Virus record (IMG/VR): IMGVR_UViG_3300009074_000052
Span: 1 to 20,358 of that record
From: a virus
DNA: 20,358 nucleotides
Strand: one strand, 5' to 3'
In this document: one piece after another, positions 2,081 to 19,406 of the stretch
Numbering within the stretch: position 1 is the first letter of the stretch
How the letters are laid out: each line of letters begins with the position of its first letter
Program-made: the position numbers and the translations under genes
The notes under the pieces: model-generated
What the model saw: the letters and a program-made list of their open reading frames with translations, nothing else
The model's database searches: none
What the model was told of the DNA's origin: nothing

Positions 2081-2248
2081 TTACGCTTTGTCTCGTTTCA
2101 ACCATTGGTCTACTTCGCAACCGATAAGTGTAACACTTACCACTATTTGTACAGGATCAAACATCACAATACCAGCGACCAGCCCAACAAGACCGATCGT
2201 TAAACCAAAGCCGATAGCGGCACGTGTCTTCATAAATTTACTAAACAT
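2081..2248 (-). CDS. Small membrane protein, two hydrophobic segments
   Basis: A 55-residue protein starting at ATG 2248 (MFSKFMKTRAAIG). GGAG lies six bases before this ATG and only three before a second in-frame ATG at 2251, so 2248 is preferred; a longer in-frame extension upstream overlaps another small gene and is unlikely to be translated. Two hydrophobic stretches, about residues 11-30 and 33-44, are separated by a DP turn, and the C-terminus is charged (DQWLKRDKA). This predicts a helical hairpin in the inner membrane. The function is unknown. The start overlaps the last eight bases of the 45-residue gene upstream, so the two are probably co-translated. Confidence 0.65.
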   Translation of the reverse strand: MFSKFMKTRAAIGFGLTIGLVGLVAGIVMFDPVQIVVSVTLIGCEVDQWLKRDKA

Positions 2249-2378
2249 CATTATCTCCAACAAGTCTTCTACATTCTTCGAATCTTCGCATTGACGTTCT
2301 AACGCCATAAAGGTCGTCTTGATTATCAACCGCAAACGCCAACCAAAATAACAACCAGATCCGAGCAATCAATAACAT
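2241..2378 (-). CDS. 45-residue membrane-anchored peptide, predicted leaderless
   Basis: ATG at 2378 opens a 45-codon frame ending with TAG at 2241. The N-terminus is a hydrophobic anchor or signal-like helix (MLLIARIWLLFWLAFAV), followed by a charged tail with MRRFEECRRL. The ATG lies exactly six bases after a consensus TATAAT (2385-2390), so the first base of the codon is the expected transcription start and there is no room for a ribosome-binding site. The stop overlaps the next start as ATGTTTAG. Function unknown. That a promoter, start codon and coupled stop all agree is the main support for a gene this small. Confidence 0.6.
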   Translation of the reverse strand: MLLIARIWLLFWLAFAVDNQDDLYGVRTSMRRFEECRRLVGDNDV

Positions 2379-2384
2379 GAGTTT

Positions 2385-2413
2385 ATTATACTACATTGCT
2401 CAATATAAGTCAA
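2385..2413 (-). promoter_or_regulatory. Sigma70-like promoter, TTGACT-N17-TATAAT
   Basis: On the minus strand TTGACT (2408-2413) directly follows the TAG stop of the GroES-like gene and is 17 bases from a perfect TATAAT (2385-2390). The ATG of the 45-residue gene begins six bases after the -10, predicting a leaderless transcript that continues through the small membrane protein, the DUF2693-like gene and the GT4 gene. Confidence 0.85.
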
Positions 2414-2677
2414 CTACAATACAACTTTAATATTCTCAGCAGGAACGATATTTAGTTTCTTTCCCTCTACAGTAATGGGAATACTATTAGCCCAACTCAG
2501 GTATACGACATCACCGACTACCACGTCTTCGACGCTATCGGCTACAGCCAATACAGTTGCTGGCTTAGATGATTGATCATCGTCAGGTGTCCCAGTTAGG
2601 ATAATGCCGCCCATCGTTGTTGTTTCTTTTTCTTCCGCTTCCAGCATGACTAACACGCTATCATTTAACATCTTCAT
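2414..2677 (-). CDS. GroES-like co-chaperonin
   Basis: An 87-residue protein with the layout of the GroES (Cpn10) fold: an N-terminal strand (MLNDSVLVMLEAEEKE), a mobile-loop-like region with TTTMGGIIL (about 19-28) that should contact GroEL, then PATVLAVADSVEDVVVGDVVYL (39-60) and a C-terminal LNIVPAENIKVVL. It is slightly shorter than the usual 95-97 residues of GroES. Phages of the T4 group encode their own co-chaperonins (T4 gp31) to let host GroEL fold the major capsid protein, which is the likely role; no GroEL is seen in the window. ATG 2677 has AAGGTG about nine bases upstream. The gene follows a tRNA and a 34-residue gene, from the promoter at 2891-2919. Confidence 0.88.
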   Translation of the reverse strand: MKMLNDSVLVMLEAEEKETTTMGGIILTGTPDDDQSSKPATVLAVADSVEDVVVGDVVYLSWANSIPITVEGKKLNIVPAENIKVVL

Positions 2678-2890: not shown

Positions 2891-2919
2891 ATTATACTAC
2901 ACATTTGGGTGAAAGGCAA
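2891..2919 (-). promoter_or_regulatory. Sigma70-like promoter, TTGCCT-N17-TATAAT
   Basis: On the minus strand TTGCCT (2914-2919) is 17 bases from a perfect TATAAT (2891-2896). The predicted start near 2884 lies about eight bases before the first base of tRNA-Thr, with the 34-residue gene and the GroES-like gene downstream. Confidence 0.82.
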
Positions 2920-5244: not shown

Positions 5245-6444
5245 CTACGATGCGTATGCATCATCCCACGTTCCTGTAAGACCAGCAACTTCATATTCTG
5301 TCACACGGTTCTCAAAGAAGTTCGTGTGGTCTGCACCATTCAATACCCACTCCAACCATGGGAGCGGATTCTCTTTTACTCTGAAGTTTGTTCGTAAACC
5401 TAACTGAAGCAATCTTCTGTCTGTTATATAGCGGATATACTGTTTTACTTCTGCAGCGTCTAAGCCTTCAACCTCGCCCATCTTGTAAGCCAGATCAATA
5501 AACTTATCTTCTAGCTTCACAGCTTGTCGTGCTATCTCATATATATCTTTCTTAAAATCTTCGTCTACGATACGTGGATGCTCAGCGCAGAATGCTTTGA
5601 ATAGCTTAGAGTTACCCTCAACGTGAATCGACTCATCACGGATAGACCATTCTACAACCTTGCCCATGCCTTTCATCTTACCATAACGCTGGAAGTTTAG
5701 TAGCATTACAAACGATGCAAATAACGCAACACCCTCGTTGAACACAGACTTAGCAAGCGACAATCCGAGACCACGCATAGTAGTAACATCATTCTCGGTC
5801 ATAAAGTCGATCTTATCAGCCATCTCTGAATACTCAAGAAAGGCATGATACTCGCTGTCAGGCAGACCAAGTGTTTCGTTCAGTAGAGCATATGCTCTTT
5901 GGTGGATACCCTCACGAGCAGCAAACGATCCAAGCATATTACGCACTTCATTGTTCTTAAATTTAGGAACAAAGTTATCGTAGTAATTCTGACCAACCGC
6001 AACGTCTGACTGAGTAAACAAGCGCAGTACATTGGTGATGTAATCTTTCTCTACCTGTGTAACCTTACCCATCTTCCAATCAGTAACGTCTTCAGAGAGA
6101 TCAATCTCGTCTTCGATCCAGTGAGCCTTTTCGTGACGTGTAGTAATATCTACAGCCCAAGGATAATGGAATGGTTTGTACGTTTCAGAGAACTCAAGCA
6201 GACCGCCAGCTTTCTTAACTAGCGTGTCAGCAATCTTCATAAGATCGTCATATGTTCCAATGTGCTTATCATCAATAAAGATCTGCGGTACAGATCGTGC
6301 GTTCGGCAGTTTCTGGTAGAACGCCAAACGTTGTTCTTGATCATCTAGCTTGACCTCACGGACAACATATCCATGAGTCTCAAACCAATACTTTGCCTTT
6401 ACACAAAATGGGCAATTACTTTTACTGTAAATTAATACGTCCAA
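5245..6444 (-). CDS. nrdB: Glutaredoxin fused to ribonucleotide reductase beta subunit
   Basis: A 399-residue fusion. Residues 1-75 are a glutaredoxin with the active site CPFC (11-14) and the SVPQIF cis-Pro loop (51-56). The rest is a class Ia NrdB: by spacing to E. coli the metal ligands are D147, E178, H181, E237, E271 and H274, and Y185 is the radical tyrosine (REGIHQRAY). NrdB supplies the radical to NrdA for making deoxynucleotides; the fused glutaredoxin can re-reduce NrdA's C-terminal cysteines. Initiation must be at TTG 6444: an in-frame TAG lies four codons upstream, and AGGAGAG precedes the TTG with a six-base gap after GGAG. The C-terminal tail (GLTGTWDDAYAS) is likely the NrdA-binding peptide. 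The gene follows nrdA by 37 bases. Confidence 0.95.
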   Translation of the reverse strand: MDVLIYSKSNCPFCVKAKYWFETHGYVVREVKLDDQEQRLAFYQKLPNARSVPQIFIDDKHIGTYDDLMKIADTLVKKAGGLLEFSETYKPFHYPWAVDITTRHEKAHWIEDEIDLSEDVTDWKMGKVTQVEKDYITNVLRLFTQSDVAVGQNYYDNFVPKFKNNEVRNMLGSFAAREGIHQRAYALLNETLGLPDSEYHAFLEYSEMADKIDFMTENDVTTMRGLGLSLAKSVFNEGVALFASFVMLLNFQRYGKMKGMGKVVEWSIRDESIHVEGNSKLFKAFCAEHPRIVDEDFKKDIYEIARQAVKLEDKFIDLAYKMGEVEGLDAAEVKQYIRYITDRRLLQLGLRTNFRVKENPLPWLEWVLNGADHTNFFENRVTEYEVAGLTGTWDDAYAS

Positions 6445-8964: not shown

Positions 8965-9993
8965 TTAAATCTTTCTCCACTCACTCAGTTTAGCCTTCGC
9001 GGACAATCCTTTGAAGGTGTTATTACTTATAATACTTTGAATCTCATCGACACACTTACCAGACAGTATCATGTCATTAATGTCTTTTTCTTTCACACTA
9101 TTTGGGAACAACGCAATCGAATGATTCTCAAGTATCGTCTTTTCAATACGTCTTACTATTTCCTTGCTTCTTGGTTCATTATCATACACAAAGACATACT
9201 CAGCTGCAGCATTAATGCCACTCACATCAGCTCCAGCCATCGCAATTGCGTTATCAACGAACATACTATCAATTGGTCCTTCAACAACATAGACTGGCTT
9301 GCGGTAGTCTACAGTATCTAGCCCAAATATCTTCGGCGCATCAGGATCAATCATTATGGTTACATACTTCAGATCGGACTTGCCTATTGCTCTGCCCTGA
9401 AACCCAATCAAGTTGTCATTCTTATCTATAAAAGGAATGATGATTCTTGGCTCATCTTTAGTGATGTTGGGAACCTTATCTTTCACACAAGCATTAACGA
9501 ACTCGTAGAATTTAGGAGCATAAAAAAGTTTGTAGTGGCACTTAGTAGGGATAGCACGACTTAAAATATATTGTTTGGCTCGGTGTGTTGGAGGCAGTTG
9601 AGAGACCTTTTTCAGCTTACCCAGCGGTGTTTTGAGATAGTTCGCTTTCTTCTTGAAGTGGAACTCTGTCTTAGTTTTCTTTGGCAGGGGAGTAGTATTA
9701 GCTGCTCTGTGACCACCCCCATCCTTGAATTTCTCCATAGTATATTCTTTATAGAGATGAGGACTGACGTGTTTTATAAGGTTGCTGACGCTTGCGCCCA
9801 TGCCGCAGTTATGACACTTAAATATATAGGAACTCTCTTTAACAAACACATAACCACGCGCCTTGTTCAGATTCGTTTGAGAATCCATACAATAAGGGCA
9901 TCGAAAATTGTATAGTGTGTCGTTCTTCCGCTTGAATTGCTCTAGCTGAGAAGAGAGAAGATGAAGGTATTTTGATTCAATATAATTACTCAT
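8965..9993 (-). CDS. 61: DNA primase, T4 gp61-like
   Basis: A 342-residue primase that would make RNA primers for lagging-strand synthesis with the replicative helicase (T4 gp41 equivalent, not in the window). A zinc-binding domain shows C32-x2-C35 (RCPYC) and C60-x2-C63 (KCHNCG). The TOPRIM core has VEGPID (E238, D242), VYDNEP (D271, E273) and KDINDM (D304, D307) for metals. The ATG at 9993 is preferred over an in-frame TTG at 10020, because the TTG lies inside the promoter spacer. The -10 at 10000-10005 is six bases from this ATG, so the message is predicted to be leaderless. Length matches T4 gp61. Confidence 0.92.
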   Translation of the reverse strand: MSNYIESKYLHLLSSQLEQFKRKNDTLYNFRCPYCMDSQTNLNKARGYVFVKESSYIFKCHNCGMGASVSNLIKHVSPHLYKEYTMEKFKDGGGHRAANTTPLPKKTKTEFHFKKKANYLKTPLGKLKKVSQLPPTHRAKQYILSRAIPTKCHYKLFYAPKFYEFVNACVKDKVPNITKDEPRIIIPFIDKNDNLIGFQGRAIGKSDLKYVTIMIDPDAPKIFGLDTVDYRKPVYVVEGPIDSMFVDNAIAMAGADVSGINAAAEYVFVYDNEPRSKEIVRRIEKTILENHSIALFPNSVKEKDINDMILSGKCVDEIQSIISNNTFKGLSAKAKLSEWRKI

Positions 9994-9999
9994 GTACTC

Positions 10000-10028
10000 A
10001 TTATACAACAAAAAGCTCAATAAGACAA
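10000..10028 (-). promoter_or_regulatory. Sigma70-like promoter, TTGTCT-N17-TATAAT
   Basis: On the minus strand TTGTCT (10023-10028) is 17 bases from a perfect TATAAT (10000-10005). The primase ATG starts six bases after the -10, so the predicted start is the A of the ATG. It would drive primase, thyX, nrdA, nrdB and the genes behind them. Confidence 0.85.
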
Positions 10029-16538: not shown

Positions 16539-19406
16539 TTATAGTTCTCTGAACGCCAACTCTTTAGCTTTCAAGAACTTAACTGCGCTCTTAATGGCAG
16601 GCATAGGACTTCTCTCAGTACCGACTTTGGTATTGCGACCTGTCTTATACTTAACCTGAACACCATCATCAGTTGTCTGCATTGTAACAAGCAAGTTGTT
16701 ATTTTTAGGATCTTTCAACTCTACAGAGATGTTATCCTTTAATGCCAATACTAATGGAGCGATATCTTTATCTTTCAGTAATGTAAACTTCTCATCAAGC
16801 TCTTGTTGCTCAGCCAAACGATTAATGGTTGCTTCCATAACAGCTTCCCATCTAGAACCATACTTGCTCTTGAAGGTAGCTTCATTTAATCCACAGCTTT
16901 CTTTAAGTGCAGATCGTACTTGCTGAACCTTAGTTTCCATATCTCTGATTTCGCCTTCAATCTCTTTACGTTGACGACCTTTACTTTTCTGGATTAGGTC
17001 TTGTAATTGAGACTCAAACGAACTTAGTTTGCGTTTAAGATCAGCTGAACTCTTACCCTTATAAGGATTCTTCAAACCTTCGTCTAAAGATGGAGAAGTA
17101 TCAACCTCGTCAGCCTTTTTGTCTTTCTTCTTGTCATCCTTTTCTTTTGACTCATCTTTAGAAATAGCCTTAGAAATTGCCTTACGCTTCTTGTGTAAGA
17201 ACTTGTCTGAATCGTCTACATCACCATCGTTGTCGATGTCTTTGTCTTTACGATCTTTGAACTTCTTCTTAACAGCTTTAGGCTGAACTTTATCAAGACC
17301 TTCACCGTCATCAGACTTATCGTTGCTGTTATCTTCATTAATAGCTTCAACACCTTGCTCAACAACAACATTAGTATCGTCAGTAGAAACTTCGACAGTA
17401 TCGGCTTGTCCAGAAACAACAGCGTTTACAGCAGCAAGCAATGAGTCACTAGAACCATAATTGTCTTGCGTTCCGAAGACGTTTGCTTCTTCAAGTCCTT
17501 CCATTGCACCTTTAACTTTGAACATTTTGTATTCACCCTCTTTGTTTGTTTTATTTGCACGATCAAGATACTTCTTAGCCTTTGATGCATCATCAAACTT
17601 AGAGAACTTAGTTGTGTCGGCTTTACCTTTCTTATCGTAGTATTGAACTATGAAGTAATCTTCATTGAGTTCTACGCTCTCGACCTTAAATCCTTTTTTC
17701 TTCGCATCAGCGATACGCATTATAGCGTTTGCGCCAGATTTTGGATCAGGAAACTTGTTTGGATTTTTAGGTGCTTTACTGTAACCAATAATTTTATCGG
17801 TCTTTGGATTATTATTTCCACGAACATTTGCTTTAGCAATATGAACAAGATCGTTATCGCCAAATTTAGCTTCGTCTAGCTCAACAGACTCTTTGATCGC
17901 ACCTTCAAGAGAACGGAAGAACTTCAGCTTAACACCTTTGGTCTCAAACTTAGCATCTTCAATAGTACCCTCTGAAGACTCTTGGGTTAGATTATAGTAG
18001 ATTCCTTTGGCGATATTGACTTTCACAAGTGGAAAGATGTCACCAGCAATGCTAATCTTTGTGGCATATCTGAATACAGTTTCGCCAGACTTTACGTTAG
18101 AACCTTTGATGTACTTCTTATCACCAGAATCTAGAGCAAATAGTACCATTGGGTGTTTGCTATTGTTATCGCTCATTACAGCAACTTCTTTATAGCCTTT
18201 CTTACGACCGAATGTTAGTGCTTGATCTTCACCCCAATTAGGAGTCTTATCTGTGAACTGTTGGTATGCTTCGTCTAGTTGATCACCTTCTGCTTCAAAA
18301 GAGTTCAACAAATGCTGCTTTCTTTTTGCAAGAGCAAACGCTTTATTCATAACAGAAGCAGCTTGTGCGATAAATTTAGATGACTGCTTTTCTGCCTTTT
18401 CGCCAGCCTTAATTCCCATTTCTAACCCAATGATCAGTTGTTCAACTGAATCGATTAAAGTGGGATCATCGAACTTTTTCTTTTCGCCCTCAGCCTTTGC
18501 TTTTAGACCTTTCAATTTTTCTATGGCAGTGAGTAGTTCGCTATTAGGCATATCACCAGCTTTAAATCGAATCTGTTCATCAAGAGAGACTGATTCGTTT
18601 AAGAAGTCATCCGCTGACTTAGCGCCCAAGGCGACATTAGCTATCTTATCTAGCTTGGCAATATTAATTTTGTATTTGTTTAATATAGCGTCAATGATAT
18701 CTGAAGCATCGCCATCGCCTTGTCTATTCACAAGTTCAAACGCAATTTTAGTATCAGCAATATTGCCTGCAATATTCCAATCTTTCTTAACGGCTGCTAA
18801 GTCTTTATATTCTTTATGACCATCATCAGTGACTACGAAGTAAACTGTTTTCTTATTCTTACCTCTCGACTGAGCCGCTAATCGAGCAGGAGTCTTATCT
18901 TTCTTACTTGTTAGCTCATCACCATAAACACTACCGCCCAGCTTTTTAATTCTTTTTAGAGTGTCTTCTATTGATTCGCCTAACATTGCTTCGAATGCTT
19001 CATCAAGAGAGACTGATTCTTTCACTACTTTACCAGTCTTAAGGAATTTAAAGTCGACACCTAATTGCTTAGCAGCTTTAGTGATAGCTTCTCTGGCTGT
19101 TCTAGCCTTTACTACGATTGGCTGTCCACCACCAAGTTTTTTGCCATTCAGAGTCTGCTTAGGAATAGGAACAGAAAAGCTGCCCATTGCTTCTTCAAGA
19201 GCATCTTCATCTTCATCTTCATCTTCATCTTCAGGCTTCTCGTGAGTGTAGCCTTTAGCAGCAAGAGCTTTGTGCTCTGCTTCGCTATTAGCAACTTCTT
19301 TCTCGCCAGTTTCTGGGTCAAACATATCGTGTGGATACTTAGCAGCTTCTTCTGCTTCCTGAAGCTGCTTGAGCTGCATCACCTTTATTGTGTTCGCTAG
19401 GTTCAT
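16539..19406 (-). CDS. Large acidic repeat protein, candidate processed head-core polyprotein
   Basis: A 955-residue Lys/Glu/Asp-rich protein without membrane segments. Five copies of an eight-residue word ([KNV]ES[VC]xL[DN]E) lie at 129-136, 270-277, 505-512, 575-582 and 835-842. Each contains two sites of the (I/L/V)xE type used by the T4 prohead protease gp21, and further LxE-A/G sites occur at 17, 72, 379, 640 and 776. Between them lie different small domains, for example 583-640 (FIVQYYDKKGK...) and 873-955. Residues 723-734 (DIDNDGDVDDSD) form an EF-hand-like loop. A run of Glu-Asp dipeptides sits near residue 60. It is probably a scaffold or internal head protein cut during maturation. 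AAGGA precedes the ATG. Confidence 0.7.
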   Translation of the reverse strand: MNLANTIKVMQLKQLQEAEEAAKYPHDMFDPETGEKEVANSEAEHKALAAKGYTHEKPEDEDEDEDEDALEEAMGSFSVPIPKQTLNGKKLGGGQPIVVKARTAREAITKAAKQLGVDFKFLKTGKVVKESVSLDEAFEAMLGESIEDTLKRIKKLGGSVYGDELTSKKDKTPARLAAQSRGKNKKTVYFVVTDDGHKEYKDLAAVKKDWNIAGNIADTKIAFELVNRQGDGDASDIIDAILNKYKINIAKLDKIANVALGAKSADDFLNESVSLDEQIRFKAGDMPNSELLTAIEKLKGLKAKAEGEKKKFDDPTLIDSVEQLIIGLEMGIKAGEKAEKQSSKFIAQAASVMNKAFALAKRKQHLLNSFEAEGDQLDEAYQQFTDKTPNWGEDQALTFGRKKGYKEVAVMSDNNSKHPMVLFALDSGDKKYIKGSNVKSGETVFRYATKISIAGDIFPLVKVNIAKGIYYNLTQESSEGTIEDAKFETKGVKLKFFRSLEGAIKESVELDEAKFGDNDLVHIAKANVRGNNNPKTDKIIGYSKAPKNPNKFPDPKSGANAIMRIADAKKKGFKVESVELNEDYFIVQYYDKKGKADTTKFSKFDDASKAKKYLDRANKTNKEGEYKMFKVKGAMEGLEEANVFGTQDNYGSSDSLLAAVNAVVSGQADTVEVSTDDTNVVVEQGVEAINEDNSNDKSDDGEGLDKVQPKAVKKKFKDRKDKDIDNDGDVDDSDKFLHKKRKAISKAISKDESKEKDDKKKDKKADEVDTSPSLDEGLKNPYKGKSSADLKRKLSSFESQLQDLIQKSKGRQRKEIEGEIRDMETKVQQVRSALKESCGLNEATFKSKYGSRWEAVMEATINRLAEQQELDEKFTLLKDKDIAPLVLALKDNISVELKDPKNNNLLVTMQTTDDGVQVKYKTGRNTKVGTERSPMPAIKSAVKFLKAKELAFREL
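18576..18596 (-). repeat. 21-bp perfect direct repeat, copy A
   Basis: Identical over 21 bases to 18999-19019 (TTCATCAAGAGAGACTGATT plus one C on the plus strand). It codes for ESVSLDE in the large repeat protein. Exact DNA identity, not only similar amino acids, suggests recent duplication or gene conversion. Confidence 0.9.
18999..19019 (-). repeat. 21-bp perfect direct repeat, copy B
   Basis: Second copy of the 21-base repeat at 18576-18596, coding for the first ESVSLDE word (residues 130-136) of the large protein. The bases on both sides differ between copies. Confidence 0.9.
19203..19232 (-). repeat. Hexanucleotide tandem repeat (ATCTTC x5)
   Basis: Five exact tandem copies of ATCTTC on the plus strand encode alternating Glu-Asp residues (about 60-68) of the large head protein. 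Such a tract can change length by slippage without shifting the reading frame, because each unit is two codons. Confidence 0.9.

Follow-up and report, generated by a model that had tools for sequence, protein, structure and literature searches.

A gene for a 45-residue small membrane-type protein (pep45) is probably expressed as a leaderless mRNA from a host sigma-70-type promoter, overlapping a downstream gene (next57) that carries its own Shine-Dalgarno (SD) site, and it probably belongs to a recurrent class of genes arranged in this way. The window, i.e. the whole stretch of 20,358 nt that was analysed (table 1), is a piece of the genome of a marine T4-like phage, with markers such as a gp61-like primase, a GroES-like co-chaperonin and a tRNA-Thr; a ribonucleotide reductase and ThyX are also recognized from the sequence. 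The transcript made from the host sigma-70-type phage promoter is predicted to begin at, or 1-2 bases from, the pep45 ATG, and the mRNA would therefore be leaderless. Its 5'-terminal AUG would be bound directly by ribosomes, in an AUG-dependent manner and with no SD helix. As the same transcript would carry the overlapping next57 with its own GGAG, translation of pep45 may feed next57 by coupling. In marine T4-like phages, such a leaderless class would include the primase, together with further genes of DNA metabolism that show it in single relatives.

Table 1. Coordinates of the features discussed, as positions in the window.
Feature	Position	Strand	Remarks
next57, small membrane-type gene downstream	2081..2248	-	start overlaps pep45 end
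pep45, 45-residue small membrane-type protein, ATG start, no SD	2241..2378	-	homologues, purifying selection, aligned start
Discriminator AAACTC, 6 bases	2379..2384	-	transcript predicted to start with the A of the ATG (2378)
-10 element TATAAT	2385..2390	-	spacer to -35 of 17 bases
-35 element TTGACT	2408..2413	-	first base directly 3' of the GroES-like gene stop codon
GroES/gp31-like co-chaperonin, upstream gene	2414..2677	-	stop abuts -35
Sister promoter TTGCCT-N17-TATAAT before tRNA-Thr	2891..2919	-	same type of promoter in an ordinary, non-leaderless setting
Small gene ending IHQW, window copy	3095-2943		
gp61-like DNA primase	8965..9993	-	phrog_47, E 8e-87
TTGTCT-N17-TATAAT-N6-ATG of primase	9991..10028	-	kept in relatives

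On the minus strand, positions 2413-2376 read TTGACT-TATATTGAGCAATGTAG-TATAAT-AAACTC-ATG (ATG 2378-2376). This is exactly the TTGACT, 17-base spacer, perfect -10 and six bases to the ATG that an earlier sequence-only reading had reported; the 45-residue ORF (2378-2241) and the same geometry at the primase (10028-9991, TTGTCT-N17-TATAAT-GAGTAC-ATG) are likewise present as it described them. With a six-base discriminator, a sigma-70 polymerase normally starts at the A of the ATG. The promoter is predicted on the basis of its strong consensus (near-consensus overall, with a perfect TATAAT) and of the enrichment of this promoter type across a contig of the same species. A scan for an SD sequence ahead of the pep45 start (TATAATAAACTC-ATG) was negative, and the start codon at 2378 is ATG, as expected of a leaderless mRNA, leaderless translation in E. 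coli having a strong AUG preference (PMC9031893).

Comparison with other viruses shows that pep45, although a short ORF, is a real, conserved gene under purifying selection. The protein is identical in six further contigs of the same species, which are themselves nearly identical, and homologues were found in 22 other viral contigs by an alignment-based search. Third codon positions account for most of the differences among the homologues (317/136/744 at the first, second and third position, respectively), and the codon differences summed over pairs are 677 synonymous versus 264 non-synonymous. L273-L277, the closest homologues, have a start codon that overlaps the stop of the upstream gene and aligns with the ATG of the window (MMILAR / MLLIAR), and this makes 2378 the likely start. 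A true start further downstream (at the TTG of codon 3 or at a later codon, for example) would turn pep45 into an ordinary leadered gene, and the homology is strongest from residue 6 on; however, the aligned start of the L273-L277 homologues is fixed by the overlap with the upstream gene, and no SD precedes the early in-frame codons, so that a downstream start is hard to credit. No family in Pfam or PHROGs includes pep45 or its homologues, and no convincing relative was found in cultured phages (best E 0.9).

In other relatives (L284, L286, L289 and L293) there is an overlap between the pep45 homologue and the end of a small gene whose product terminates in IHQW. Outside the species the homologues lie behind another gene with no promoter, and the six further contigs with the geometry all belong to the same species. 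Thus, pep45 is normally coupled to a neighbour, and in this species it has ended up behind a promoter at leaderless distance. The coupling in relatives, together with the co-direction of all neighbours and a GroES-like stop codon 35 nt upstream, would also fit translation of pep45 by re-initiation on transcripts reading through from the GroES-like gene, the promoter spacing being a coincidence. This is very unlikely, since the relatives have a start/stop overlap, whereas here the 35-nt gap lacks an SD and is filled by a near-consensus promoter, and since the full pattern would be expected practically never by chance.

Downstream, next57 has its own SD (GGAG 2258-2255, 6 nt before the ATG at 2248), and its relatives in L100 and L103 start at the equivalent codon. 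A short ORF at leaderless distance is therefore followed by an SD-bearing gene, which is the layout of a 5'-terminal AUG leader ORF, and the main alternative is that the promoter serves mainly next57 and later genes, the 5'-terminal AUG and the 45-codon ORF being a leader that tunes next57 by coupling. The overlap between the pep45 end and the next57 start is in keeping with it, as are the promoters directly before the next57 homologue in L105 and L140, which have an ordinary SD leader, and the regulation by upstream AUGs described for short leaderless ORFs of E. coli (PMC9031893). As predicted for pep45, the ptrB-type leader ORFs of E. coli have an AUG at the 5' end and are short, and a gene with an SD follows them (PMC9031893); unlike them, pep45 is a conserved protein that overlaps the next start. 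Its conservation in its own right, in phages with different neighbours, makes pep45 more than a leader, and a purely leader role is unlikely, but a leaderless pep45 could also act as a leader for next57, and both roles can coexist.

The full pattern TTGnnn-N17-TATAAT-N6-ATG has two occurrences in the window, whereas 100 dinucleotide shuffles gave none; stripped of its -35 the pattern is less remarkable, with two TATAAT-N6-ATG sites against 0.38 expected and at least two in 4 of 100 shuffles. The two cases in the window make, by themselves, a thin argument. The wider scan against a shuffled control proposed by the sequence-only reading was carried out on a same-species contig of 133,055 bases (the window's own record ends with the window) and on relatives, and it yielded further cases. 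When up to two mismatches were allowed in the -35, the contig contained 35 TTGnnn-N17-TATAAT promoters versus 1.4 expected from shuffles, 32 of them on one strand. Most have an ATG approximately 24-36 nt on, with a GAGA, GGAG or AGGAG site, and three lie 6-7 nt from an ATG with no SD (N6 twice, N7 once; none in 60 shuffles), namely those of the primase, pep45 and a 2OG-Fe(II) oxygenase. A promoter-like match in the window (10770-10742) falls within a conserved coding region and was discounted as a chance occurrence.

In the related phages, the distance from the -10 to the ATG is two-humped over 241 non-redundant promoters, and it was two-humped again in a recount with 177. Among the 173 promoters with a 17-base spacer, 15 are at N6 and 8 at N7, followed by about one per position from N9 to N22 and then by a broad second hump. 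GTG and TTG starts show no peak at N6-7, the close class starting with ATG only. With the primase excluded, the enrichment is moderate, with 9 promoters at N6 and N7 together versus 1.43 per position (Poisson P=0.003). A scan of 50 related viral records for TTGnCn-N17-TATAAT-N6-7-ATG gave 42 matches (21 per position), versus 23 at N10-13 (5.75 per position, over twice as many positions), 5 of which share their site with an N6-7 match; these counts are not all independent, because the records partly overlap in content (G038/G039 and G027/G028, for example). Reversed-pattern controls were almost empty, and some N6-7 matches, lying before very short ORFs, may be due to chance. The earlier claim of a deliberate leaderless design and not chance is thus supported by class-wide evidence; since the pep45 geometry is not conserved beyond the species, the word deliberate rests on the promoter class and not on the pep45 locus.

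The genes behind the close promoters include, as named from their own sequence, DnaJ-like, UV-endonuclease-like (in four different records) and DNA-polymerase-like genes and, as named by family search, T4 RNase H, QueE-like and methyltransferase genes. The DnaJ-like phage genes of L295 and L297 start 6 nt past TATAAT. For the UV-damage-endonuclease-like genes of the marine phage records L300, L301, L304 and L310, the distance from a TTGACA/TATAAT-type promoter is exactly 6 nt in every case, and this family would be a good second one for tests of leaderless starts.

The primase is the clearest case. Over 53 protein clusters, the promoter distance scored by script was N6 in 19, N7 in 9 and N8 in 2; four mis-scored clusters were read by eye (L014 N6, L050 N6, L052 N7 and L076 N6), and about 34 of the 53 then have the N6-8 layout, all with ATG. 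The layout is kept over deep divergence, and the leadered primases of relatives include TTG and GTG starts. The T4-like cyanophages S-PM2, P-SSM4, S-H38, S-RIM12 and B23 also have a TTGACA-N17 promoter directly before gp61, but the primases of these cultured phages are leadered, with approximately 23-34 nt from the -10 to an ATG, TTG or GTG start, and no promoter was found before the primase in T4, Pseudomonas phage Milchi or Yersinia phage CAU_YEP3. The close layout therefore characterizes a large marine group, apparently uncultured.

In phages of Gram-negative bacteria, to our knowledge, a few repressor genes have provided most of what is known about leaderless initiation. Examples of leaderless phage mRNAs are lambda cI (PMC9031893) and PY54 cI and cro, the 5' ends of which were mapped by RACE (PMC4488713). 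In these, as predicted here from sequence, the promoter lies at so short a distance that transcription begins at the AUG; however, they are lysogeny regulators of temperate phages, whereas here a primase, a small membrane-type protein and an oxygenase of a T4-like phage are concerned. The literature searched gave no description of a recurrent use of leaderless mRNAs by T4-like phages, cyanophages included, which is weak evidence of absence, as most subscription journals lie outside it. If the preferred reading of pep45 as a leaderless gene of a recurrent class is true, the primase layout kept over large divergence and its reuse for a small membrane protein would make leaderless translation routine in abundant marine phages, and would explain why start-site callers that require an SD may miss such genes. 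The leaderless and leadered primases provide many natural pairs for testing what leaderless starts are for. A broader and rather doubtful proposal is that, in marine lytic T4-like phages, host-promoter genes of the leaderless class are centred on DNA replication and repair (the primase, plus polymerase-like, RNase H and UV-endonuclease-like genes in single relatives), so that each protein would come exclusively from its own promoter, with a preference for translation by infection-altered ribosomes.

Other features of the window may be mentioned. A 955-residue ORF (16539-19406, minus strand) with acidic low-complexity segments has a partial match only to phage families without a known function (phrog_22379). 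In one ORF (5245-6444, minus strand), an N-terminal glutaredoxin-like domain with a CPFC motif appears to be fused to the small subunit of ribonucleotide reductase. At 2919-2681 (minus strand) the sister promoter is followed by the tRNA-Thr (TGT) and then by a 34-residue acidic peptide (2785-2681), while in the relative L140 (1272-1312), and similarly in L105, a promoter stands at N8 directly before the acidic-peptide homologue with no tRNA, as would result from the insertion of the tRNA gene downstream of a near-leaderless promoter.
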